The notes beneath the pieces are model-generated. The model was given only the letters and a program-made list of their open reading frames with translations. It made no database searches and was not told the DNA's origin. From positions 1 to 64,000 of the forward strand of contig JASHRF010000060.1 in NCBI GenBank assembly GCA_030037545.1: 64,000 nucleotides of DNA, written 5' to 3'. The translations under genes were made by a program, and so were the position numbers. Of this stretch, positions 2,688 to 44,300 are shown one piece after another. Origin of the DNA: Acidobacteriaceae bacterium. Its GTDB lineage: Bacteria; Acidobacteriota; Terriglobia; Terriglobales; Acidobacteriaceae. Within the stretch, counting starts at the first letter, position 1. Each line of letters opens with the position of its first letter.

Positions 2688-5600
2688 ATGGCTGTGACGA
2701 AGGAATCGGCAAAGGCACTGCGGGCGTTAGGCCAGCCGGGCTCATGGTTGGCAATGATGCTCGTGTTTGCGCTTGCTTTAGCGGCAGGTATCCCAGCGTT
2801 GGCGCAGGTCGGCAATTCTCGTATTCGCGGGGTCGTCACCGATCCGCAGGGTGGGGTTATCCCTCATGCCCAGGTTGTATTGACGAATGAAGAGACGGGC
2901 GTGAAGTCGACGACCCTTTCCGATGGGCAGGGGGAATATGTGTTCCCCGAAGTTCCGCTGGGCAGGTACGAAATACGGGTAGATGCCAAGGGCTTTAAGA
3001 CATTTCAGCATGCTGACCTGGTGCTGACCGCTGATCAACACCTCACCCTAAATGTGCCTATGGCTTTGGGCTCCGCAACAGAGATTGTGACCGTAACCGG
3101 TGAAGGCAGCCTCGTTGACACCCAGACCGGCGCGATCAAAAGCATTGTCGACCAGAAGAGCATCCGGGATTTGCCGCTCGAAAGCCGCGATGTGCGTCAG
3201 CTCGTGGCTCTTACTCAGGGCGTGATTGCGGTCGGGCCTACCTTCAACTCCGAGATCCAGAGTTCCACGCTACCCGGAACTCCGGATTTTACCTTCGACG
3301 GTGGACGCGAAAACACAGTGAATTACCTGCTGGATGGGGTAGACAACAATGATCCTTACACAAATGTCCCCGCTCCCTACCCGGACCCCGACGCGCTGTC
3401 TCAGTTCAGCGTGCAGACCAGCAACTTCGATGCGGAATACGGCAGGAACTCCGGCGGCATTGTCGATGCCATCACCAAATCGGGGAGCAACCGTTTGCAC
3501 GGCAGCGCCTATGAATTTCTGCGGGACAGCACATTCGGTCTGGATGCGAATGACTGGGGAACCAATCATTACACGCCGAATGCTCCGGAACCGTTCCTGC
3601 TCCAGCATCAGTTTGGTGGGTCGCTGGGCGGTCCCGTCTACATTCCGCATATCTACAACGGCCGTGATAAGTCTTTCTGGTTTGTTGCGGACCAGCAGAC
3701 GATTATCCATACGGCGGGCTCGGCTGCTAGCGTCACAATTCCAACTCCGGCCCAACGCGGGGCGACCAGCGCAAATGGCTGCAATGGTGCGGACCTTTCC
3801 TATTTCCTCCCCAGTAACCTCGCAAACCATTCCCAGGACAGTCGCAGCTTCATTGTGACGAATCCCATTACAGGCTCGCCATTTACCAACAACTGCATAC
3901 CTGCGGCGATGCTGGATAAAGCCGCAACCCAATTTTTTACCGACTACATGCCCGCTGCGCCAAACAGCACCGACCCCGCAACCCCGAACAACTATAGTTT
4001 TGCCGCGCCTCCCAGCGACACGGACCAAAACCAATTGACGGTTCGCGGCGATCAGAAGCTTTCCAACGCGAATCACCTGACGTTGCGCTATTACCGCTTC
4101 GGCTATAGCAGTGGCGAGGCGGCGGTATTGCCGACCAATATTGCATACGGAACCGCCGGTTTTCTTGGGAGCGTAGACAATGCCGCTGTCGAGCTGACTA
4201 CGGTATTTTCGCCGCATCTGGTCAATCTGGCCTACATCGGATATGCGCACATCTTCAGCTTTCCGGGCGCTCCTCCGCCGGGATACCCTACCTCTCACTC
4301 TCTAGGCCTCAACGTCTTCAGCATTCCACCGAACCCGTTGGATTTCGGCATCACTGGATGGACCGGGGCGGCTGGCACCGGCGCTGGAAGTCTTCCCAAT
4401 GACCGCAACGGCTTTCCCATCGGGGATACGCTCAATTATCAATTCGGAAACCATTCATTGAAATTCGGCGCTCAGATCGAGCGGGTGCAGCAGTACTACG
4501 ATTACAATGCGGCCTACCCCAACTTTTCTTTTAATGGAACCTTCAGTGGAGATGGTCTATCGGATTTTCTGATGGGGTATTTCTACCAACTAACGGAGGC
4601 AAGCCCGGAAATCCTGAATACGCGCTTCACTTCATGGGCGTTCTTTGGACAGGATAACTGGAAGGTGAACAATCGCCTGTCGCTGGATCTGGGTCTCCGG
4701 TGGGAGCCATGGCTGCCACCGCATTTTGTTGGCCCATTCAACCCGATCAGTGAAATCAGCGATTCCGCATTCGCCGCCGGCGTGCGCTCAACAGTTTTCC
4801 CAAACGCTCCTCCGGGATTGCTTTTCTACGGAGATAAGGGCGTTCCGCGGGGCGGGACAAATGCCGACTATAAAAATTTCTCTCCTCGGGTTGGCTTTGC
4901 CTATGAACTTGGTGGCTCGCAGAAGCAAGTGATTCGCGGGGCTTACGGCATCTTTTACGATCAACCGAAAAACGATCTCTACAATCACTTTCTGAATGGT
5001 GAGCCGTTCAATTTCACCGAATTTCTGACCAACACGAGTACCGCTCTTCTGAGTTGGGAGAACCCTTATAATGGGCAGCCGGATCCCGTGGGGACATTTG
5101 TCGGTGAAGGCACCAATCTCGGCCCAAGCGCCACCTTTACGTCAGATATAGCAGGCGAGCTGAGCTTTGAGACTTTTCACATGCCTTACATCCAGCAGTG
5201 GAATCTCACGTTGGAGCGGGAGTTGCCTTGGAATAGCCTTGCCAGGATCACCTATGTCGGCAATAAGGGAACGCACCTTGAATGGGCACGCGACGCGAAC
5301 ACACCGATTAACGGAACCGGACCGATCAGCACCTGGGCAAGTCCTGATGCCCGCCGTCCCTTGGCGCCCTATTTCAGCTATATCAATGGCCTGTACTGGG
5401 ACGGCTGGTCTAACTACAACGGTTTGCAGTTGAGCTTCGAGCACCGCTTCTCGCATGGCCTCTCGGCCACGGCCAATTACGAATGGTCAAAGGCGATGGA
5501 CAGCAACTCGGACTCTATGGAGTTTATCGCTCACGGCATTCAGAACCCGTATGACCTACCCGGCGAGTATGGACCTGCGGAGTACGATGTTCCCAATAAC

Positions 5601-19292: not shown

Positions 19293-21701
19293 TTACCGTG
19301 TCGTCGAAGTCACGACATCGAGGTCGGTGTCGAAGGAGAGCCTGGCAATGATGGCGTCAAGCTGCGCTTGCGCCTCGTCGCGCTGTTGTTCGAGATCCGC
19401 CTGATTCTTGCGCGCCGCCTGGAGTTGGTCTTCGGCCTGATTCAGCTCATCGACAAAGCGCCTGGCAGCGTCGTTGCCCTTGAGGGCAGTGATGTTGTCC
19501 CGGTCGCGCGCCTCGTCGCCGGCCAGGGTCTTCTGTTGCTGGTCGTTCTCATCGAGTTTGCGATTGAAATCGGTCAATGCGGTCTCCGCGTCGATAGCTG
19601 GGCGCAGCTTTTCTTCCAGCGCCGGCGAATACCTGCTGACGGTGACGAGAAAATCGCCGTTATTGAACTGCGACCCGATGCCAATGCTCTCTGAGAGCTT
19701 GGCGCGCTCGGCCACGTGCAGATCGGCGGACTGGTGCGGCTCGACGGCGACGCGGAAGCGATAGGCTGTAGCCGTGGTTTCGTCGGGCTTGGTGTCGGAA
19801 TCGAGTTGGGAGTTGGGGCGGCGCGTGTGCTCGATGACCACGGCCCGGGTTTCATCGGCGGCATTGGTGATGGTGTAAGTATTCTCTGTTACTTCGCTGG
19901 TGGTTTCGACCATCATGCCATCGTGGACCGCGATATGACGCAGCGTACGCGTATCGTTGTAGCCGCTGCGACGAACCCTGACCGCCTGATCGACGGCGTA
20001 CGAAAGCAGGCGCTTTTCGCCGGGATGAACGGGATCGAGCAAACCCTCGCCGGCAAATTCACCGTTTTCGAATATGGAAAAACTGCCGGCGTCGAGGGTG
20101 AGTTTGGAAGTGTTATCGAGCCAGACAGCGCGCAAGGGCGTGTTGCCCTTGTCGCTCCACAGGGTCACGTGCTCGGCAGGCAGGTCCTGTTGCAGGATGG
20201 GCACCATGGCCGACTCGTTTTTGTGGATGGTGACGGGCTGGGCGAGCGCGTATTCGAAGAAGTCGTCGAAGGCGTTGGCGGAGACATCGCCCTGTTCCAT
20301 GGCGTCAGAGGCGCGGTAGACGCCGCCAACATGGTAGAAGCCGCCGCCGGCGTTCCCGCCCAGGCCAGGGCCGTAGCCGCTGCCCGAGCCAAGGCCGCCA
20401 GAGGCGCCGGGAGCAGCCGGGGCCAAAGCTGCGAGACTCCCTTGTACCACCGTGACCATCTGGGACGCCGCCCCAACATTGAGACTGACATTCGCCGTAG
20501 CCGTCGAAAGGGCACCAACATCGATGTTGCGCTGATAGCCCTGGAACCCTCTCGCCACAACCGTGAGCGTGTACAGGCCGGGCGTCAGCGGCGAGATGGT
20601 GAAGCTGCCGTCGCTCGAGGTGCTGCTGGTCGTGGTTGCGTTCGTTCCCTGCGCCGTTGCGGTAACCGTTGCGCCGGGAATAACCGCGCCGGTGGTATCG
20701 GTGACGATGCCGGAGATGGCTCCCGAGCTAACAGTCTCCGCCGCCTCGTGCGTCTGCGGCGTGGTCTGCGCCGCTGTCGCAATTGGGATCACCGGCCGGC
20801 GAGCATAGATCGGCTGCGAGAGCGGCTGGATGAAGCTCTGCGGCGCGCCTGCAACCAGCGAGAGCTGCACATTGTCCCAATCCACGCCCACGGTGTTGTC
20901 CACCACCGCCCAACCCTGCACGGTGGCGCTGCCGTTGGGATCGCGCGGGAAGACGATGCGGTAGGTGGACTTCCACACCGGCACTTCGCTGATGTAGCTG
21001 ACCTGCAACTGGCGTTCGCCCTGGCCGCGGTCTTCGAGCGTGAGGTGCCGGGTCTGCTGATTCTGCGCCGAGGCAACGATTTCAAGATAGCTGGCGAATT
21101 GCTTTTCGAGCGATGCGTCGAGCATGCGCACGGAGACCGCATCCGTCAGCTCCGCCGTGCGCAGCGCGCCGGTATCTGTAGCGACGATCAGATAGTAACG
21201 ATCCTCTGAGGTCGTCCCGCTCTTGTCCGTCTCTTTGCGATGTTCAAGATTGACCAGCCTTCCCGTAAGCGGAGCGCCTGCGCCCGTCACTTCCACGCGT
21301 TGCCCGCACAGCGCCCGGTAGACGGAGAGTGTCATGGGATGGACCTTGAGTCCCAGTGACAGCGAATTCAATTGCTGGTCGATGGGCGTGGTGGAGTTGT
21401 AGCTGACCGCGCTCACCATGCCGCCGTTGCTGTCGAGCGCAGTTAGCGATTGCAGCACGTCGTTCAACTGCGAAGAGGTAAAATCGATGGCCACGCGCTG
21501 GTTGCCGTTGACGGTTCCACTGTGCTCGAAGTAGCCAACGCCGTTTTTGTAGAGCACCACCTTGCGCACGGGCAAGTCGTTAGGGGCGGCGGGCTGCGCG
21601 GCTGCGGGCGATGCCGCCTTTACCGTCGAAATGTCGGGACGCTGGGCTACAAGCACGAGGGCGAAGACAGAGAGCAAAACGGCAGGAAAAACCCGAATCA
21701 T
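19293..21701 (-). CDS. DUF4139 protein with inserted carboxypeptidase-like Ig domain and Gly-rich loop
   Basis: 802 aa. ATG 21701 has a perfect AAGGAGG six bases upstream, so the in-frame upstream codons are excluded. A signal peptide precedes VRKVVLYKNGVGYFEHSGTV, a DUF4139-family opening. The DUF4139 core includes YISEVPVWKSTYRIVF and WAVVDNTVGVDWDNVQLSLV. Between about residues 330 and 420 a CarboxypepD_reg-like domain is inserted (ISGIVTDTTGAVIPGATVTA), the same kind that begins TonB receptors, then a Gly/Ser loop (ASGGLGSGSGYGPGLGGNAG). The protein resumes with DUF4139 strands and finishes with a coiled coil (LNQAEDQLQAARKNQADLEQ). Exported; function unknown. Confidence 0.9.
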   Translation of the reverse strand: MIRVFPAVLLSVFALVLVAQRPDISTVKAASPAAAQPAAPNDLPVRKVVLYKNGVGYFEHSGTVNGNQRVAIDFTSSQLNDVLQSLTALDSNGGMVSAVSYNSTTPIDQQLNSLSLGLKVHPMTLSVYRALCGQRVEVTGAGAPLTGRLVNLEHRKETDKSGTTSEDRYYLIVATDTGALRTAELTDAVSVRMLDASLEKQFASYLEIVASAQNQQTRHLTLEDRGQGERQLQVSYISEVPVWKSTYRIVFPRDPNGSATVQGWAVVDNTVGVDWDNVQLSLVAGAPQSFIQPLSQPIYARRPVIPIATAAQTTPQTHEAAETVSSGAISGIVTDTTGAVIPGATVTATAQGTNATTTSSTSSDGSFTISPLTPGLYTLTVVARGFQGYQRNIDVGALSTATANVSLNVGAASQMVTVVQGSLAALAPAAPGASGGLGSGSGYGPGLGGNAGGGFYHVGGVYRASDAMEQGDVSANAFDDFFEYALAQPVTIHKNESAMVPILQQDLPAEHVTLWSDKGNTPLRAVWLDNTSKLTLDAGSFSIFENGEFAGEGLLDPVHPGEKRLLSYAVDQAVRVRRSGYNDTRTLRHIAVHDGMMVETTSEVTENTYTITNAADETRAVVIEHTRRPNSQLDSDTKPDETTATAYRFRVAVEPHQSADLHVAERAKLSESIGIGSQFNNGDFLVTVSRYSPALEEKLRPAIDAETALTDFNRKLDENDQQQKTLAGDEARDRDNITALKGNDAARRFVDELNQAEDQLQAARKNQADLEQQRDEAQAQLDAIIARLSFDTDLDVVTSTTR

Positions 21702-21866
21702 TATTCCTCCTTCATGGTGCATTGAGGCGGTCCTTCGACAATGGAACGGGATTGCTTGCGTTTCTTGCAGGATAATTGCTGTTTTCTTTGACTCCGCGGC
21801 CCGAGAAAAGGTTCCCGGCGTTTCCTGCGCCTACCCATTATCATGGCCGCAGGGAGGCCTGACGCC

Positions 21867-22709: not shown

Positions 22710-23279
22710 TCACAGCGATTCTGCCTCAATGGTGAGGGTCCCGGTATAGGTGCCGGCCGGCAATGTCGTCTGGTTGGCGAGGTCGATCTCCAGACTCAGG
22801 TCGTAGATGAAGGAGGTTCCTTTAGTTTCGTCCCCGGTGACCGTCTTCGTGGCGAGTTCAAGACTCGCCCCGGCGATACCGACCCCGCTATAAGTATTCG
22901 TAAAGGCCGTATAGGCGGTTGGGATGCCGCCAGTTACTTCTCCCAAAATCTCCGACGATGGGATGTCTACGCCGGCGTCGGCCAAGGCCGCGGCCGCAGT
23001 GCTGAAGTATCCGTAGAGGGTGATGGTGCAGCCGCCAGTGCAGTTGCCCTCCCACGTGGTGGTGATGGCGACGGTTTCGGCGCTGGAGGTCCGTCCGGCA
23101 ACCAGAGTGATATCAACCGGGGTGGGAGAAGCGGTTACCGTAAGCGACCTGGCCTCGACCTCCGGCACAACCACTTGCGGTCTGATTTGCCCCACGCGAA
23201 TCGCCTGCGCCGCCGCCACCCAGGGTGCGCTCAAGACCACACCGGCTATCAATCCCACGCCCACGATCCATTTCCGCAT
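22710..23279 (-). CDS. secreted beta-rich protein, candidate fimbrial subunit (3)
   Basis: 189 aa with a signal peptide ending near APWVAAAQA. Mature protein is rich in Thr/Ala/Val with alternating hydrophobic residues (SLTVTASPTPVDITLVAGRT, SAETVAITTTWEGNCTGGCT) and ends LPAGTYTGTLTIEAESL, the G-strand-like terminus seen in pilin-type Ig folds and spore-coat-U-like subunits. It holds one Cys pair (NCTGGC). It shares layout and ending with the proteins at 25699-26241 and 26440-27027. It lies 10 bp after the usher-like gene, so it is the last gene of the five-gene locus. Subunit role is inferred. Confidence 0.7.
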   Translation of the reverse strand: MRKWIVGVGLIAGVVLSAPWVAAAQAIRVGQIRPQVVVPEVEARSLTVTASPTPVDITLVAGRTSSAETVAITTTWEGNCTGGCTITLYGYFSTAAAALADAGVDIPSSEILGEVTGGIPTAYTAFTNTYSGVGIAGASLELATKTVTGDETKGTSFIYDLSLEIDLANQTTLPAGTYTGTLTIEAESL

Positions 23280-23289
23280 GACCAGTGTC

Positions 23290-24948
23290 CTATTTTCTGC
23301 TCAGCGTTACGCGCTCCACCACGATCACGATCTCCGGAGCATTGTCTTTCCCGCTGCTGCGCACATTCTCAGGCGCCGAGACCACGTTCCAGGCGGCTCC
23401 GCCAAGAAACTGGGCCGGCATCACCTTGAGCACATGAGTGTGCGGCTTGCGTTCCCTGACGAAGAATACTCCATCGTCGTCGGTGTAAACGAGGAGCTTG
23501 TCGATCATGAGAGCGGCGCCGGAGACCGGTCGCCCGCTCGCGTCCACCACTCGCCCGCGAATGATGCTGGAACCGATGGCGCCCTGCGCCAGTTTCTCTC
23601 CTCCACCGGGCGCGCCCCACGCTCCCTGGCGGGTCATCACGGCCTGCGAATCAGCGGTGTACTGCAGACTGCCGTCGGGCGCCACAAACGTGGCCCCGTG
23701 CAGGGTGAGGCCGTGAATGACATGAAGCTGGACGTCGAGGATGAGCGCCTGCTCGAATGGATTGCTATTGCGCTGGGGAATATAGAAGGTCTGGTAACCG
23801 GCGGTGATACTGGCTACGTTGGAAAGAAAGCCGCCTCCGAAGGAAACTGTAGTTTGCCCCTGCGAGCGGCTCACCATCTCGGACACATTCAGTCTTGGGT
23901 TGACCTTTTCATTGAAATTGGCCAGGAAATCTCTTATTTTGGGCGTGTTGTTCGGCCGGCTCTCAAGATAGCTGGACGAGGCTTGAAGAAACGGTAAAAG
24001 ACTGCGCCCGATGGTATATGCGGTGGCATTGTTCCAGGTTCCCTGGTAGTTGGAGTGATAGAGAGACGCGGACACGTTAGTCCTGGCCACGAAAATGTTT
24101 CCCGAGCCTTCGTCCACCGAGCTCTGCACGCTGGACGTGGAGTTGGTGACCGGAGAGAGAAAGTTCTGCCGTCCGCCACTCACGGTGAAGTATTTGGAGG
24201 GGCGCAACGTAACGATGGCATTTTCGCGGTTCGGCTCACTGAACAGCGGCGCCGCCACCGCCACGCGGCGAAAGTTACTGCCGGCCTCGATATAGGCCGC
24301 CTTGACATCGATCCAGGGACGAAGGAAATCGAAGCTGGCGGCGCCGTAGGGCTGGTTTGCGCCCACGCCGCCGGAAAGCGCGAAATCGGTCTTGGCCGCC
24401 GGTTGCCACTGCAGGCTCTGGATGGCCGTGACCTGCTGCGAAAACACCATATCCGATGAGAGCTGAAGGCTGGGACCAATGCGACGCTTCAGGAAGAGGA
24501 TTCCGGCAGGCTCCTCAGCGCGCACACCATCCACAAACGGACTTTCAAATTCCGAAGAGGTGGCTCCGCCAAAGGCGAAGATATCGGTATTCCCAATCTT
24601 TGTGGTGATCCCTGCGCCCAGGGCGACCAGGTAGTCGCTGGAATCGAAGATATCGGTGGGAAGCACAAAGTGGATATAGTCGCTGCCGGCTACATAGGTC
24701 GAGTGCCCCATTTTTCCGGTGAGATTGGCGCCGCCCACCAGCTGGCCGGAGACAATGCCGGCGCCCAGCGAAGCATCATAACTGGGTCCGCGCGCGGAGA
24801 TGGTGGCGCCCTGCGCCTGGTAAAGGCTGGAGGAGCCGCCGTTGACTTCGAAGACCTGGCCGCGCAGGTGCGGGACTGCGAAGACGATGAGGAGGGTCAG
24901 GGCTGAAATCCGCAACCCGCTGCGTGCTGCCTTGCTTTCCATCATCAC
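23290..24948 (-). CDS. usher-like outer-membrane beta-barrel protein with C-terminal Ig-like domain
   Basis: 552 aa. A signal peptide (LRISALTLLIVFAVPHLRGQ) is followed by about 400 residues of amphipathic beta strands (YDASLGAGIVSGQLVGGANL, TVSFGGGFLSNVASITAGYQ), consistent with an outer-membrane barrel. A C-terminal domain has the carboxypeptidase-regulatory/usher-tail pattern IRGRVVDASGRPVSGAALMI and DDDGVFFVRERKPHTHVLKV. Its ATG overlaps the chaperone-like gene by 4 bp (24945-24948). Classical ushers are about 800 aa with separate N-terminal, plug and two C-terminal domains, so this would be a minimal version. The alternative is a generic porin-like barrel. Export-pore function is inferred from the neighbours. 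Confidence 0.65.
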   Translation of the reverse strand: MMMESKAARSGLRISALTLLIVFAVPHLRGQVFEVNGGSSSLYQAQGATISARGPSYDASLGAGIVSGQLVGGANLTGKMGHSTYVAGSDYIHFVLPTDIFDSSDYLVALGAGITTKIGNTDIFAFGGATSSEFESPFVDGVRAEEPAGILFLKRRIGPSLQLSSDMVFSQQVTAIQSLQWQPAAKTDFALSGGVGANQPYGAASFDFLRPWIDVKAAYIEAGSNFRRVAVAAPLFSEPNRENAIVTLRPSKYFTVSGGRQNFLSPVTNSTSSVQSSVDEGSGNIFVARTNVSASLYHSNYQGTWNNATAYTIGRSLLPFLQASSSYLESRPNNTPKIRDFLANFNEKVNPRLNVSEMVSRSQGQTTVSFGGGFLSNVASITAGYQTFYIPQRNSNPFEQALILDVQLHVIHGLTLHGATFVAPDGSLQYTADSQAVMTRQGAWGAPGGGEKLAQGAIGSSIIRGRVVDASGRPVSGAALMIDKLLVYTDDDGVFFVRERKPHTHVLKVMPAQFLGGAAWNVVSAPENVRSSGKDNAPEIVIVVERVTLSRK

Positions 24949-25640
24949 TTCGCATCACTGCCCGCAACCACCGGTTGTTGGAGCGTGGAGTGCTCGAGCT
25001 GGAACAGAATGGTCTGTGGCGGCTCCTTCTCGCTCCAGCTCAGCTCAAGATGACGGGTTCCGCCGGGCAGAAGCGGGAACCCTGGGTCTGTCTCCGACAG
25101 GTTGCCGGAATCGATACGCACCTGCTGCACGCGCTCCAGGTCCACGCCGCGATTGTCAAGGTCGCAGACTACCTTGCCTGTCTTGGCGTTCCAGGCCGCC
25201 TGCGTCACCGCGACCATGCCTTTGGAGCGCTGCTTTTTGGGATAGATGTACACCGTGTGAGGGAGCAGGATACGCACGTCCATGCTGCCCGCATGATGCG
25301 GCGGCGAAAAGGCGGAGTAGATGGTGAACCAGGCCGGCAGCTTGTCGGCCGTGGCCTTGTAGAAAACGTAGTAGGTCTGGCCGGGGTCAATGCGGAAGCT
25401 CATGCTCGACAGCTTGAGGTGAATGTCCGGATCGAGCGGCCGGTAGACGCCATTCCCATTGGGAGCGATGCTGAAGCTGTGCGGCTCCAGCACCACCACC
25501 ATGGGAACCAGCGCGTTATTGGTGAGCGCAATGCGCCCCGCGGCCTTGCCCGTGTACTCCACGATGACAGGAGACACGGTTTGGGCAAACGAGCAACATC
25601 CCGAGAAAAAAAGCGCGAAGCTCAACCCTATCCGCAGCAA
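24945..25640 (-). CDS. PapD-like periplasmic chaperone (candidate)
   Basis: 231 aa. Start TTG 25640 is fixed by AGGAGGG eight bases upstream. After a signal peptide (ALFFSGCCSFAQ) come two probable Ig-like domains: GRIALTNNALVPMVVVLEPH, then SSMSFRIDPGQTYYVFYKAT followed by LPAWFTIYSAFSP and MDVRILLPHTVYIYPKK, then a second domain from QRSKGMVAVTQ. This spacing mirrors fimbrial chaperones (N-terminal strand pairs, a basic linker, 'LPxxVxIxPK'). The canonical Arg/Lys cleft pair cannot be confirmed by eye. It overlaps the usher-like gene by 4 bp and follows a subunit gene, the order expected of a chaperone-usher operon. Confidence 0.65.
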   Translation of the reverse strand: MLRIGLSFALFFSGCCSFAQTVSPVIVEYTGKAAGRIALTNNALVPMVVVLEPHSFSIAPNGNGVYRPLDPDIHLKLSSMSFRIDPGQTYYVFYKATADKLPAWFTIYSAFSPPHHAGSMDVRILLPHTVYIYPKKQRSKGMVAVTQAAWNAKTGKVVCDLDNRGVDLERVQQVRIDSGNLSETDPGFPLLPGGTRHLELSWSEKEPPQTILFQLEHSTLQQPVVAGSDAK

Positions 25641-25698
25641 GACAGTGACCCTCCTGGAATCCAGGTGCAGCGCCCACTCGCGAAGGCGCTGCCGCGCA

Positions 25699-26241
25699 TT
25701 AATTGGCTTGCGCCGTCAAGGTCAGTGTGCCCTGATAGGTATCAGCGGGCACCGACACACCGGTCAGGTTGATGGCCATATTCAGGCTGTCGGAACGGTT
25801 GCCAACCGGATGCGCGGCGGTGATCGCGTCCGTGAACAAGACCAGACTGCCTCCCGAGGAGAACGGAGTAAGTGTTCCCCCGTTTATCGCACCCTCAACT
25901 GCCGTGGCGGGAATGGTGCCGGTGCCGCCGTTGGTTTGGTCAGTCAGAGCCGCCGTGGGCGTGCTAAAAGACGCGGTCAGGGTAACCGTATTGGAAGCGG
26001 AGGTCAGTATCCAGCTGGTGGTGATATTCGACGTCGATGTAACCGTCGGCGAGATGCCTCCGGCCACAAGAGCGATGGTCGGCATGGAGGCGGGGGCGGT
26101 AATGGTCAGGGATTCGGCCAGCGTAGCATTCACAGTAACGCTGGCGGACGCGGTTGCGCAGTAAGCCGCGGGGCTGGCTGCAAGAACGATGCCGAGGCTC
26201 AGGATAAGCCCGGCGAACACAGATTGGGAAAAGCGTAACAT
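25699..26241 (-). CDS. secreted beta-rich protein, candidate fimbrial subunit (2)
   Basis: 180 aa from ATG 26241, with GAGGAG nine bases upstream (an ATG at 26256 overlaps that ribosome-binding site and is disfavoured). The signal peptide ends near SPAAYC. The mature sequence is almost all beta and very low in charge: SVTVNATLAESLTITAPASM, SNITTSWILTSASNTVTLTA, and the ending VPADTYQGTLTLTAQAN. No Cys pair remains in the mature protein. The pattern fits archaic (spore coat U-like) pilin subunits that donate an N-terminal strand. It lies 58 bp upstream of the chaperone-like gene. Confidence 0.7.
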   Translation of the reverse strand: MLRFSQSVFAGLILSLGIVLAASPAAYCATASASVTVNATLAESLTITAPASMPTIALVAGGISPTVTSTSNITTSWILTSASNTVTLTASFSTPTAALTDQTNGGTGTIPATAVEGAINGGTLTPFSSGGSLVLFTDAITAAHPVGNRSDSLNMAINLTGVSVPADTYQGTLTLTAQAN

Positions 26242-26289
26242 GGAGGGTCTCCTCATTGACTTTCACCGGTGACCTCGAAGCAGGGGACC

Positions 26290-26309
26290 CACAGGAAGTA
26301 TTTCCTGTG
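26290..26309. promoter_or_regulatory. perfect 8-bp-arm palindrome between subunit genes
   Basis: CACAGGAA-GTAT-TTCCTGTG forms an 8-bp stem with a 4-nt loop in the 198-bp gap upstream of subunit 2. There is no T-run, so an operator or a transcript-processing hairpin that sets subunit ratios is as likely as a terminator. Confidence 0.45.
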
Positions 26310-26439
26310 CGGCTTCAGTTGTTTGGTAGCCCGGTTTAAATTGACCCTAACTTAAACACGGTTGTTTTGAAATACAACAAAAATGGAGCGGAGTAACCAA
26401 GAGGCGCAACCAGCGTCCGGAGGCGGTAACTCTAAGGTG

Positions 26440-27027
26440 TTAGAGGGCTTCGGCGAGAATGACGAGCAAGCCGGAGGCGCGGCTGGAGTATGGTTGGGTT
26501 GTATTGGCGGCGTCGATCGCGAACCGGATTTTGTCCACTCGGGAGGTATATTTGCTGGCTACTCCCAGGCGCTGGGTGAAGAGACTGAGCCCGATGCCAG
26601 AGGCGAGGCTGCCAGACTGGGTGACTGGGGCGAAAGGAGTAGCGGGCCCAGCGGCGGACGGGTCGAAGGCCTTCGCCGGCAAGAGGCTCTGCAGCCTGCC
26701 TCCGGTCTGCGCAAGCGGGTCCGGAGCAAAGTAACCGACCAGCCGCAGGGTGGTGCAATCGCGGCGAATGGCCCACGACGTGGTAAGGGCGAGGGCAGGC
26801 GGGATGTTGTCACCGAATTGCGATGCCGGGACGGCTGCTGGCGCCGCAGACACGGACAAGGACTCAAGCGTAGCCACCAGCATTACCGTTGCCGACCGCG
26901 AAGTGAGCGGCGACAGTCTCCCCCGCGGGCTGGAGCCGAACTGGCAGAAGGCCAGCGGCGACAGCGGCACAGCGGTCAGAAGCAGGCAGGTCGCGCCGCG
27001 TAGAAGATGATTCCCGCATACCCTCAT
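26440..27027 (-). CDS. secreted protein, candidate fimbrial subunit or tip (1)
   Basis: 195 aa from ATG 27027, with GGAG seven bases upstream. A signal peptide ends near LSPLAFC. The mature part has ATVMLVATLESLSVSAAPAA, LALTTSWAIRRDCTTLRLVG and the ending YSSRASGLLVILAEAL. It shares the position of key strands with the other two candidate subunits ('TTSW', the hydrophobic C-terminal strand) but is richer in Arg/Pro, so it may be a specialised tip or an initiating subunit. It is first in the minus-strand locus and divergent from dnaB across 259 bp. Confidence 0.6.
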   Translation of the reverse strand: MRVCGNHLLRGATCLLLTAVPLSPLAFCQFGSSPRGRLSPLTSRSATVMLVATLESLSVSAAPAAVPASQFGDNIPPALALTTSWAIRRDCTTLRLVGYFAPDPLAQTGGRLQSLLPAKAFDPSAAGPATPFAPVTQSGSLASGIGLSLFTQRLGVASKYTSRVDKIRFAIDAANTTQPYSSRASGLLVILAEAL

Positions 27028-41354: not shown

Positions 41355-44300
41355 TTAGAACTCAAGTACGCCTTTGATCTGAAGGAGTCTCGGCGAGTTG
41401 TCTCCGCCCAAGCCGACCCCAAAGAGCGAGCTGGGCGATCCGACAGCACTAATGATCTGCCCAAAAGTGGAATCGGCGAGGTCAGGGTCGGGAATGGCGA
41501 AATTCGGATGGTTGAATATGTTATAGGCCTGTGCCCCGATGCCGAATTTCATGCCCTCGCGGAGCGGTATGTTGGTCATCTTCATAAGGCCAAAATCGGA
41601 CTCGACAAACATCGGTCCCCGGAATTGATTCAGTGCCTGGTTCCCGAATCCTGTCGCCGCTGAGGTGAACTGGCTCGCCAGCAGGCAGGCGTTCTTCGGG
41701 CTGCTGCAGGAAGGCACGCTACCCCCGTTGAAGTTGGCGAAAATTCCGTACGCCGGGGCCGGAACGCCGGCGCTGGACGAATAGTTCTGTCCAGCCAGCG
41801 CCGCGTCGGTCGCGCTGTCGTAGACTGTGAACGGGAAGCCCGAATGCACATAAAACGTCTCAGAGAGCTGCCACCCGTCAATGAGACTGTTAAGAGCGCC
41901 CGGCCCGTGAAGGAACTTCGCGAAGGGCACCATCCATACATAATCGGCGGTCATCCCGCTGTGGACATCGAAATTCGCGTTCCCGTAGGATAGTTTCGGA
42001 TTGTAGGGATCCTCGATGTATCGTGGATTACCAGTGCCGATTTCGTCGGTGAGGGCGTGACTGTACGTGTAATTTGCCTGGACCACCGAAGAGCCGAAGT
42101 GATCCGCGAACTGAATGGTCGCGCCGTTGTAACTGGAAATCCCCTCGTCTTCCATCAACGTCACTGTGCCGAATCGCGGGTCGGGAGCCGTGGCTGGCAG
42201 CCCCGCAAAACCGGTGGCGTACGCATTAACCGATCCGTTCTGGATCCAGCCATGGATCTCATGGTTCCCGACATATCCCACCGTAGCCACCGCATCCCTC
42301 CACAGTGCGCGCTCCACCTCCAGGCTCCACTTGGTTACCAGCGGCTCCGGCAATTGGGCGACGGCTTCCTGTAACTGCGGGGGAGAGAAACCCGGTACCG
42401 CAGCCTCGAATTGCGCCAGCGTGTAGCCCTGGCTGTATCCCGATGTGAAGGCCGAGGTATCGCTGGCCGTCTGGGCGAACAGGTTTCCGCTCTGGCTAGG
42501 CGCGAGCGGACCGCTGCTGGCGATAAAGGTGTTGATCAGCGGCGAGTTCTCGGCCTGATTGAAGGCTATGTTATCGGGAACATTGTCGTAAAACAATCCA
42601 ATGCCGCCGCGGACCACGGTGGCCCGATTAACCCCAAACGGCTGCCAGGCGAACCCGAGGCGCGGTTGCCATTCCAGAGCCTGCAGGTTATAGAGTCCCT
42701 GATGCAGGCCGGTCACCAGAGCCTTGTTATAAGGAGTGTCCACGTTGTGATCGAGCTCGGAGAAGGGCACCGTGGTTCGCGCGAAGCAGTTCTTCTGGCA
42801 AACCGGATTGGTCGCATGATCCAGGCGGAGCGCCAGGGTGAGGGTGAAGGCATCCTTCACTTTCCAGCTATCCTGGATAAATCCTCCCATATGAGCTTGC
42901 GCCAGCGGTTCCCAGCCATTGGTCAAGAAAGATTGGACCAGCGTCGAATAGTCGCTACCTCCCGCCGCCACGCTGGCCTGATCGATGCCGCCATCGAAAA
43001 ACGCGTCTGCCGTATTGGCCGTCAGTAAACCAATGTTGTTGCCGTAGTAACTGATTCCCTCATCGTAGCGGCTGAAATCGAAACCGGCCTTGAGGGAGTG
43101 ATCGTGGATGATCTTAGTCAGATCGTCGGAAAAGTGATAGTCGGTTAACGCCTGCAGGGCAGGGAAATCTGCGTCTATCCCACCCAGGGTGGTGAAGGTT
43201 CCATCGCCGAACTGGAGATCGGTCGGAAACGCCGCCAGAGTGGCCGGTGCGATCGCCGTTGTAGGTGAGCCGGGCGGCGCAAATTCAATATGGAAATGCT
43301 CGACCGACGTATCGAACTCGTTGACAAGGCTGGCCGACAGCGTTGAGGTCCAGGAAAAAGCACCCGTCTGCACCAGCTGAGCGCTGTCAACGTCAAAGAG
43401 GGGGTTGATGGGATCCGTATAGGTGGCCTGCGTTCCATCGTCGACTTTGAAATGTCCAAAAATGTGATTGTTCGCGTTGATATTCCAGTCGATGCGGGAA
43501 GTGAGGATCTCCTCCGGATTGAAGTTCCCCGCCGTGGAACGGAAATTCAGCGCGCAGGGCACGCCCGAGCCAAGACCGGTAAAGCCGTTACAGCCGAGAG
43601 GATCGGTTCCGTTCCCCGGCACCGCGCGCGATGCGCCCGCCGCCGAGTTGTATAGATTGAAAATGCCCTGTCCCAGGCCGGTTCCGCCTCCTGCCGGACA
43701 AGTCACCGTTTTTCCGCTGGCATCCGTCAGCGTCAAATTCTGGCAGTAAAACGGAATCGATGCGGTCAGGCCATTCGCTGTCAGGTTCTCAATGGTCGCC
43801 GCCTCAAACTGCTGGCTTGGAATGAGAGCGAGCGCGCTGGTAGGCAGCATAATGCGGACACCCTCCGTATCGGCGAAGAAGAAGAGCCTGTCGTGCAGGA
43901 TGGGACCGCCGACCGAAGCGGCCCACTGGTTGACGTTATCGAAGGGTCTTGGGGTATCGCTCAAGTTGTTGAAATAGTCGTTGGCGTTAAACGCGCGGCC
44001 ATTCCAGAAATATTTCGCGTTTCCGTGAAACTGATTCGAACCGGATTTGGTCACGATGGTATCGTTAGAACCGGCCAGGTAGCCGTACTGGCCCGTATAC
44101 TCAGTTGCGGAAACCGTAACTTCCTGTATCTCATTCAGTCCCAGCAGAAGGTTCGATGAACCGCCGTTGGTTGAGTTACCGTCGGGATTGATATCCTCCA
44201 TCCCATTCTCGATCAGCAGATTCGAATTCGTCGTTATCCCATACATCGAGGGAAACAGATCGCCGGTCATCACTGCGCCGGGAGACATCTGCAGCAGCGA

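Follow-up and report, generated by a model that had tools for sequence, protein, structure and literature searches.

A probable reduced chaperone-usher-like pathway with a short, plug-less barrel in Acidobacteriaceae

Introduction

Can a chaperone-usher pathway operate with an outer-membrane barrel of only 552 amino acids (aa)? The question is raised by five adjacent genes at 22710-27027, on the minus strand of a 64,000-nucleotide stretch of an Acidobacteriaceae bacterium (contig JASHRF010000060.1 of assembly GCA_030037545.1; hereafter the window), which are transcribed in the order s3, s2, chaperone, barrel, s1, where s1 to s3 are small secreted subunits. The original prediction, made from the window alone, read them as a minimal chaperone-usher-like assembly pathway. 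Our analysis supports that reading as far as genes and models tell: none of three contrary outcomes (a barrel without usher likeness, a presumed chaperone without the two-domain immunoglobulin (Ig) fold, genes that do not co-occur) was observed, and the locus probably encodes a reduced chaperone-usher pathway.

Results

The 231-aa protein is, with near certainty, a PapD-like chaperone. A profile of 32 chaperones of this type aligned with 13 chaperones (12 distinct) from acidobacterial loci with ordinary ushers at 98.6% over 208 columns and both domains, with reversed profiles as control at 0.2-0.3%; the value was 98.2% when seven chaperones of other loci were added and 55.1% against those seven alone. 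A profile of nine ordinary acidobacterial chaperones matched CsuC at 2.9e-30. The AlphaFold model has two beta domains of unsettled mutual orientation (predicted local distance difference test (pLDDT) 77.5, predicted template modelling (TM) score 0.48), in line with the two-Ig chaperone originally proposed. Foldseek matches of the model include CfaA, CupB2, CsuC and YadV, and unrelated Ig proteins score equally, so more weight falls on the sequence profile. PF00345 (PapD_N) matched none of 26 diverse chaperones (E ≤ 0.1), none of 32 closer ones (E ≤ 1) and nothing in the genome itself, and sequence searches of solved structures, run with both single proteins and profiles, yielded no relevant chaperone match. 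We also considered a lipoprotein, given that the window protein has SGCC just ahead of its probable signal cleavage site, and rejected it because many relatives lack such a cysteine by eye.

Chaperone and barrel genes travel together. Protein searches (E ≤ 0.001) returned 866 proteins for the chaperone and 255 for the barrel, counting those of the window, and the best 120 of each were considered. We compared the window with 31 other loci (L numbers), 25 reached via the chaperone and 6 via the barrel. The barrel gene adjoins the chaperone gene on the same strand in 30 of these 31, spaced from a 230-bp overlap to a 31-bp gap (the L066 barrel is shortened to 333 aa). Among chaperone-found genomes, the window's own included, 25 of 26 carry the pair, so the neighbourhood is not chance, and all six barrel-found loci have an adjacent chaperone. 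Chaperone and barrel identities were strongly correlated (Mantel r = 0.93 for 31 pairs, a value reached in 0 of 1000 permutations), and at least one member of the subunit family occurs in 31 of 32 loci, window included. Co-occurrence, which the original prediction had set as a test, thus holds for chaperone, barrel and subunits across loci of the family. The exception, L072:5919-6803, is a diverged chaperone-like gene, the lowest-scoring of the chaperones, whose G1 strand is without the P-H-T motif and which has no barrel or subunit of these families within the 12 kb fetched.

The 14 barrel-bearing loci with a named record come from three Granulicella strains and from eleven bins that carry the label Acidobacteriaceae or Acidobacteria. 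When the barrel profile was run on 297 genomes of the phylum, it matched 15, with at most four first-look candidates scored per genome, so that misses are possible; five matches, the window's own included, spanned the barrel, all in its own family, and the other ten were confined to profile positions 409-524, the C-terminal region. The deep chaperone profile, applied within the family, matched 26 of 200 genomes. tblastn with the barrel found no copies in a plasmid collection, and a search from the three most diverged barrels returned seven proteins, none labelled PF00577.

The barrel is usher-like by predicted fold, as the original prediction had it, and the low-confidence model (pLDDT 59) places 25 strand elements in residues 31-419, with ushers as the nearest solved structures ahead of porins and TonB receptors. 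The same prediction noted the small size and a carboxypeptidase-like domain at the end, and a CarboxypepD_reg-like match is indeed found there, at 28.5 bits in the window (under the Pfam cut-off of 32.3) and at E ≤ 0.1 in 25 of 25 barrels scanned, window's included. Across the five proteins, Pfam scans gave one further barrel match, CarbopepD_reg_2, and beyond that noise below threshold, NCBIfam scans gave noise only, and searches of solved structures by sequence yielded no relevant barrel match except the CarboxypepD_reg domain. This transthyretin-like domain aligned colinearly with one usher C-terminal domain (24.0% when aligned alone; CooC_C weak at 0.052 and 0.19). Two relatives (L059:3696-5741 and L060:3888-5936) carry a SPOR domain after it (5.5e-19 and 2.9e-18). 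SPOR domains bind peptidoglycan, which would put the barrel C-terminus on the periplasmic side, where ushers have theirs, and in these two loci the machine could be tethered to peptidoglycan.

Parts of ordinary ushers are missing throughout. The PF00577 Usher profile matched none of the 25 barrels scanned and nothing in the genome itself, and the usher N-terminal domain and plug are absent in 29 of 29 full-length relatives. Q31 (numbering of the 552-aa open reading frame, ORF), just ahead of the first strand, is the conserved start of the mature barrel (31/31). The stretch before it is signal-sized (17-38 residues) except in L053, L063 and L064, whose long N-termini probably reflect start choice because those ORFs overlap the chaperone ORF. 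No insertion of at least 12 aa occurs in the relatives (29 full-length, one truncated), and the longest inter-strand gap in the model is 19 residues (129-147), which leaves no room for a plug. FimD, as set out in PMC12122975, has a periplasmic N-terminal domain that recruits chaperone-subunit complexes, a 24-stranded barrel with a plug that shuts the resting pore (barrel and plug spanning residues 140-665) and a pair of C-terminal domains. The present barrel resembles FimD and PapC in predicted fold and in a C-terminal domain that aligns with an usher C-terminal domain, and differs in lacking a PF00577 match, the N-terminal domain and the plug and in having one C-terminal domain instead of two. 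The barrel portion spans ~425 residues, near the length of the FimD barrel minus the plug.

The most serious alternative accepts the chaperone and subunits as genuine and takes the barrel for an unrelated porin-like or TonB-like exporter whose usher likeness is convergent or a model artefact. Weighing in its favour, and against descent from ushers, usher homology comes mainly from a low-confidence predicted fold and gene order, not from sequence. Yet Foldseek ranks 1-9 are all ushers despite the many large barrels available, with TM-scores of 0.21-0.30 for matches 10-50. A barrel-only profile favoured ushers (29.2%; 14.7% for 13 PF00577 ushers) over control TonB receptors (5.9%, 20 sequences) and OprB (0.3%, 19 sequences); Porin_O_P, present in a single one of 21 relative genomes, was too rare for a control. 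A TonB match of 82.6% came only from columns 40-95, the receptors' N-terminal domain, which by inference is CarboxypepD_reg-like. We therefore consider an unrelated barrel unlikely, and descent from ushers probable.

A second acidobacterial pathway without a PF00577 match (L125, L126, L130, L134) shares the order subunit, PapD-like chaperone, barrel protein, subunit, and differs in its usher-like protein of ~900 aa and its different type of subunits. Such loci (those four, and also L127 and L131) were reached via PF00345 matches in other Acidobacteriota whose genomes have no PF00577 match; they combine a subunit, a PapD-like chaperone and an usher-like protein of ~900 aa or larger, with a larger subunit in four. 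Seven usher-like proteins (from these six loci and L129) aligned with 13 ordinary ushers at 99.0%.

We also compared the chaperone with known anchor residues. The superfamily's sole invariant chaperone residue is a strand D1 proline, Pro59 of CsuC, and the archaic carboxylate anchor consists of Arg89, Tyr196 and Arg174 of CsuC (both from PMC4654587). In the 32 aligned sequences, P24, W104, Y131, N163, R170, G187 and P192 are conserved in all and H128 in 31. The D1 proline is absent: the aligned residue 79 is S79 in the window (T13, A10, S6, E2, N1 overall), and none of the 32 has a proline at residues 78-81. By hhalign and CsuC alignment, Arg89 (strand F1) falls on residue 109 (A19, S9, F3, N1) and Tyr196 on P189 (P in 31/32), so that of the three residues of the archaic/alternative anchor set only Arg174 is retained, as R170, which follows N163 by seven residues just as Arg174 follows a conserved Asn. 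No conserved basic residue at 22-29 could supply the classical domain-1 Arg/Lys anchor (residue 23 is R in 13/32). H128 and Y131 lie at or within three residues of what we take, with the help of a FaeE alignment, to be the classical lysine position, with the register not settled. In the G1 region, hydrophobic residues fill positions 122, 124 and 126 in 31, 31 and 32 of the 32 sequences, respectively (one Ala), and position 123 and mostly 121 are polar, giving a donor-strand-like alternation; hhalign columns place the CsuC donor residues in another phase. From these alignments, R170 with H128/Y131 may form a novel carboxylate anchor.

These residues bear on whether the locus is an ordinary archaic (sigma) chaperone-usher system too diverged for databases, a reading that we hold to be improbable. 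The nearest chaperone relatives are archaic-type and align with it over both domains, Arg174 is kept, and the subunit-chaperone-usher-subunit order (CsuA/B-A-B-C-D-E in Csu), the N-terminal donor-like strand and a subunit ending in a C-terminal strand are likewise Csu-like. In contrast, Pro59, Arg89 and Tyr196 are replaced, the usher-like barrel has no N-terminal domain or plug in any full-length relative, and the candidate tip has a single domain where CsuE has two (PMC9452303). Ordinary ushers (open frames of 788-889 aa), found by PF00577 in 6 of 200 family genomes, are absent from the 26 with this chaperone (apparently among the same 200 genomes), which is not significant because the expected overlap is ~0.8.

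The original prediction noted a shared beta-rich layout and a hydrophobic C-terminal strand in the three small secreted proteins. By profile search s1, s2 and s3 form one family, and a query profile that contained them found no other members in this assembly, which is 88.7% complete; an iterative search from them found 67 further members in the compared loci. A donor-like N-terminal motif was present in 42 of 47 genes upstream (the five exceptions include two ORFs that are short at the N-terminus), in 1 of 17 downstream (one more, L071, doubtful by eye) and in 1 of 6 on the opposite strand (or 3 of 6 when judged by eye); with a stricter motif, applied first, the counts were 36/47, 0/17 and 2/6, respectively. 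Fisher's exact test for the donor motif (p = 6e-10) ignores relatedness, and the motif was defined after viewing the alignment. Donor-bearing and donor-less types occur together in 20 of 31 loci, and in L063, L066 and L067 the donor-less gene lies upstream on the opposite strand; in the other 11 loci the tip may come from another family. In donor-strand exchange of chaperone-usher pili, the subunit exported first can do without a donor strand, so the donor-less s1 is a natural candidate for the tip subunit. By position, s2 would probably be the major subunit, and s3, whose C-terminal strand is divergent, is a possible adaptor or terminator. The subunit profile matched known pilins weakly, hints such as SCPU (0.36 for s1) and SEF14_adhesin (best 0.01, 2 of 28 subunits) were too weak to rely on, and searches of solved structures by sequence gave no relevant subunit match. 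Donor-strand polymerisation of the predicted subunits is probable. A non-polymerised, non-covalent surface or periplasmic complex of Ig-like proteins akin to WxL with WxLIP, the 'chaperone' being a structural partner, is very improbable: Foldseek does place Enterococcus faecium WxLIP (9i25, 9i1y) at ranks 4 and 5 for the chaperone model (E ~7e-4), but the sequence profile favours fimbrial chaperones, and the conserved outer-membrane barrel, donor-like segments and donor-less downstream subunit would have no evident role.

The ORFs bear out the predicted layout of five minus-strand genes, with a 4-bp chaperone/barrel overlap and a 10-bp barrel/s1 gap (Table 1). All five proteins start with a hydrophobic signal-like stretch, judged by eye. 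A CAGGAGGG site precedes the chaperone start, and for the barrel an ATG one codon after the GTG is the likelier start. Promoter and terminator scans gave no signal beyond shuffled sequence. A G+C-rich hairpin at 25641-25698 (minus), between the s2 and chaperone genes (-26.1 kcal/mol, z -1.5), is conspicuous in L049, L050, L057, L058 and L074 (z -2.1 to -5.3) and inconspicuous in most of the 29 folded loci; it may tune subunit versus machinery expression. Elsewhere in the window, an 809-aa protein (19293-21722, minus) presumably has a CarboxypepD_reg-like mid-protein stretch (IVTDTTGAVIPGATVTAT...) and is similar to DUF4139-type proteins. TonB-dependent receptor-like frames of more than 1100 aa were recorded at 3948-4991 (plus, below the family cut-off) and 42597-43163 (minus), of 25 such matches in the genome.

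Table 1 Genes of the putative chaperone-usher-like locus in the window.
Feature	Position	Strand	Length	Remarks
s3, first small secreted subunit	26440-27027	minus	195 aa	donor-like N-terminal segment SATVMLVATLESL
s2, small secreted subunit	25699-26256	minus	185 aa	donor-like segment ASVTVNATLAESL, C-terminal strand DTYQGTLTLTAQAN
PapD-like two-domain periplasmic chaperone	24945-25640	minus	231 aa	TTG start
Usher-like outer-membrane barrel with C-terminal CarboxypepD_reg/transthyretin-like domain	23290-24948	minus	552 aa from GTG	
s1, subunit downstream of barrel gene	22710-23279	minus	189 aa	without donor-like segment

Discussion

In the mechanism that we propose, Sec would carry all five proteins across the inner membrane, where the chaperone G1 strand (V122/I124/L126) would complete each unfinished Ig-like subunit, the free C-terminus of which would be held by R170 in domain 2 and H128/Y131 in domain 1. 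The chaperone would then hand subunits to the barrel; since the barrel has no N-terminal domain, recruitment and handover would have to rest on its single periplasmic C-terminal domain. The donor-less s1 would be exported first and become the tip, after which the V-x-L-x-A-x-L-like N-terminal segment of the following s2 (and s3) would take the place of the chaperone strand through donor-strand exchange, and the growing chain would be pushed out via a roughly 24-stranded pore that no plug closes.

By the defining features tested, the system falls outside the classical, alternative and archaic classes as described, and appears to work like them. It may represent a separate chaperone-usher clade, here in Acidobacteriaceae, in which the usher shed its N-terminal domain and plug, the transthyretin-like domain recruits and a new Arg/Tyr/His anchor operates, a proposal that we regard as evenly balanced. 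Literature searches on chaperone-usher systems or fimbrial ushers in acidobacteria and on plug-less ushers found no such locus in titles and the beginnings of abstracts, with subscription papers and preprints outside their scope.

If the proposal is true, the barrel would be, to our knowledge, the smallest usher and a natural minimal catalyst of donor-strand exchange. A natural system without plug or N-terminal domain would reveal the usher parts that donor-strand exchange and secretion cannot do without, and how a large pore stays safe when no plug closes it. It would also place a surface-fibre system in soil bacteria that look nearly empty to the standard profile, since PF00577 finds no usher in this genome and few in the family (6 of 200 genomes, against 26 with this chaperone).
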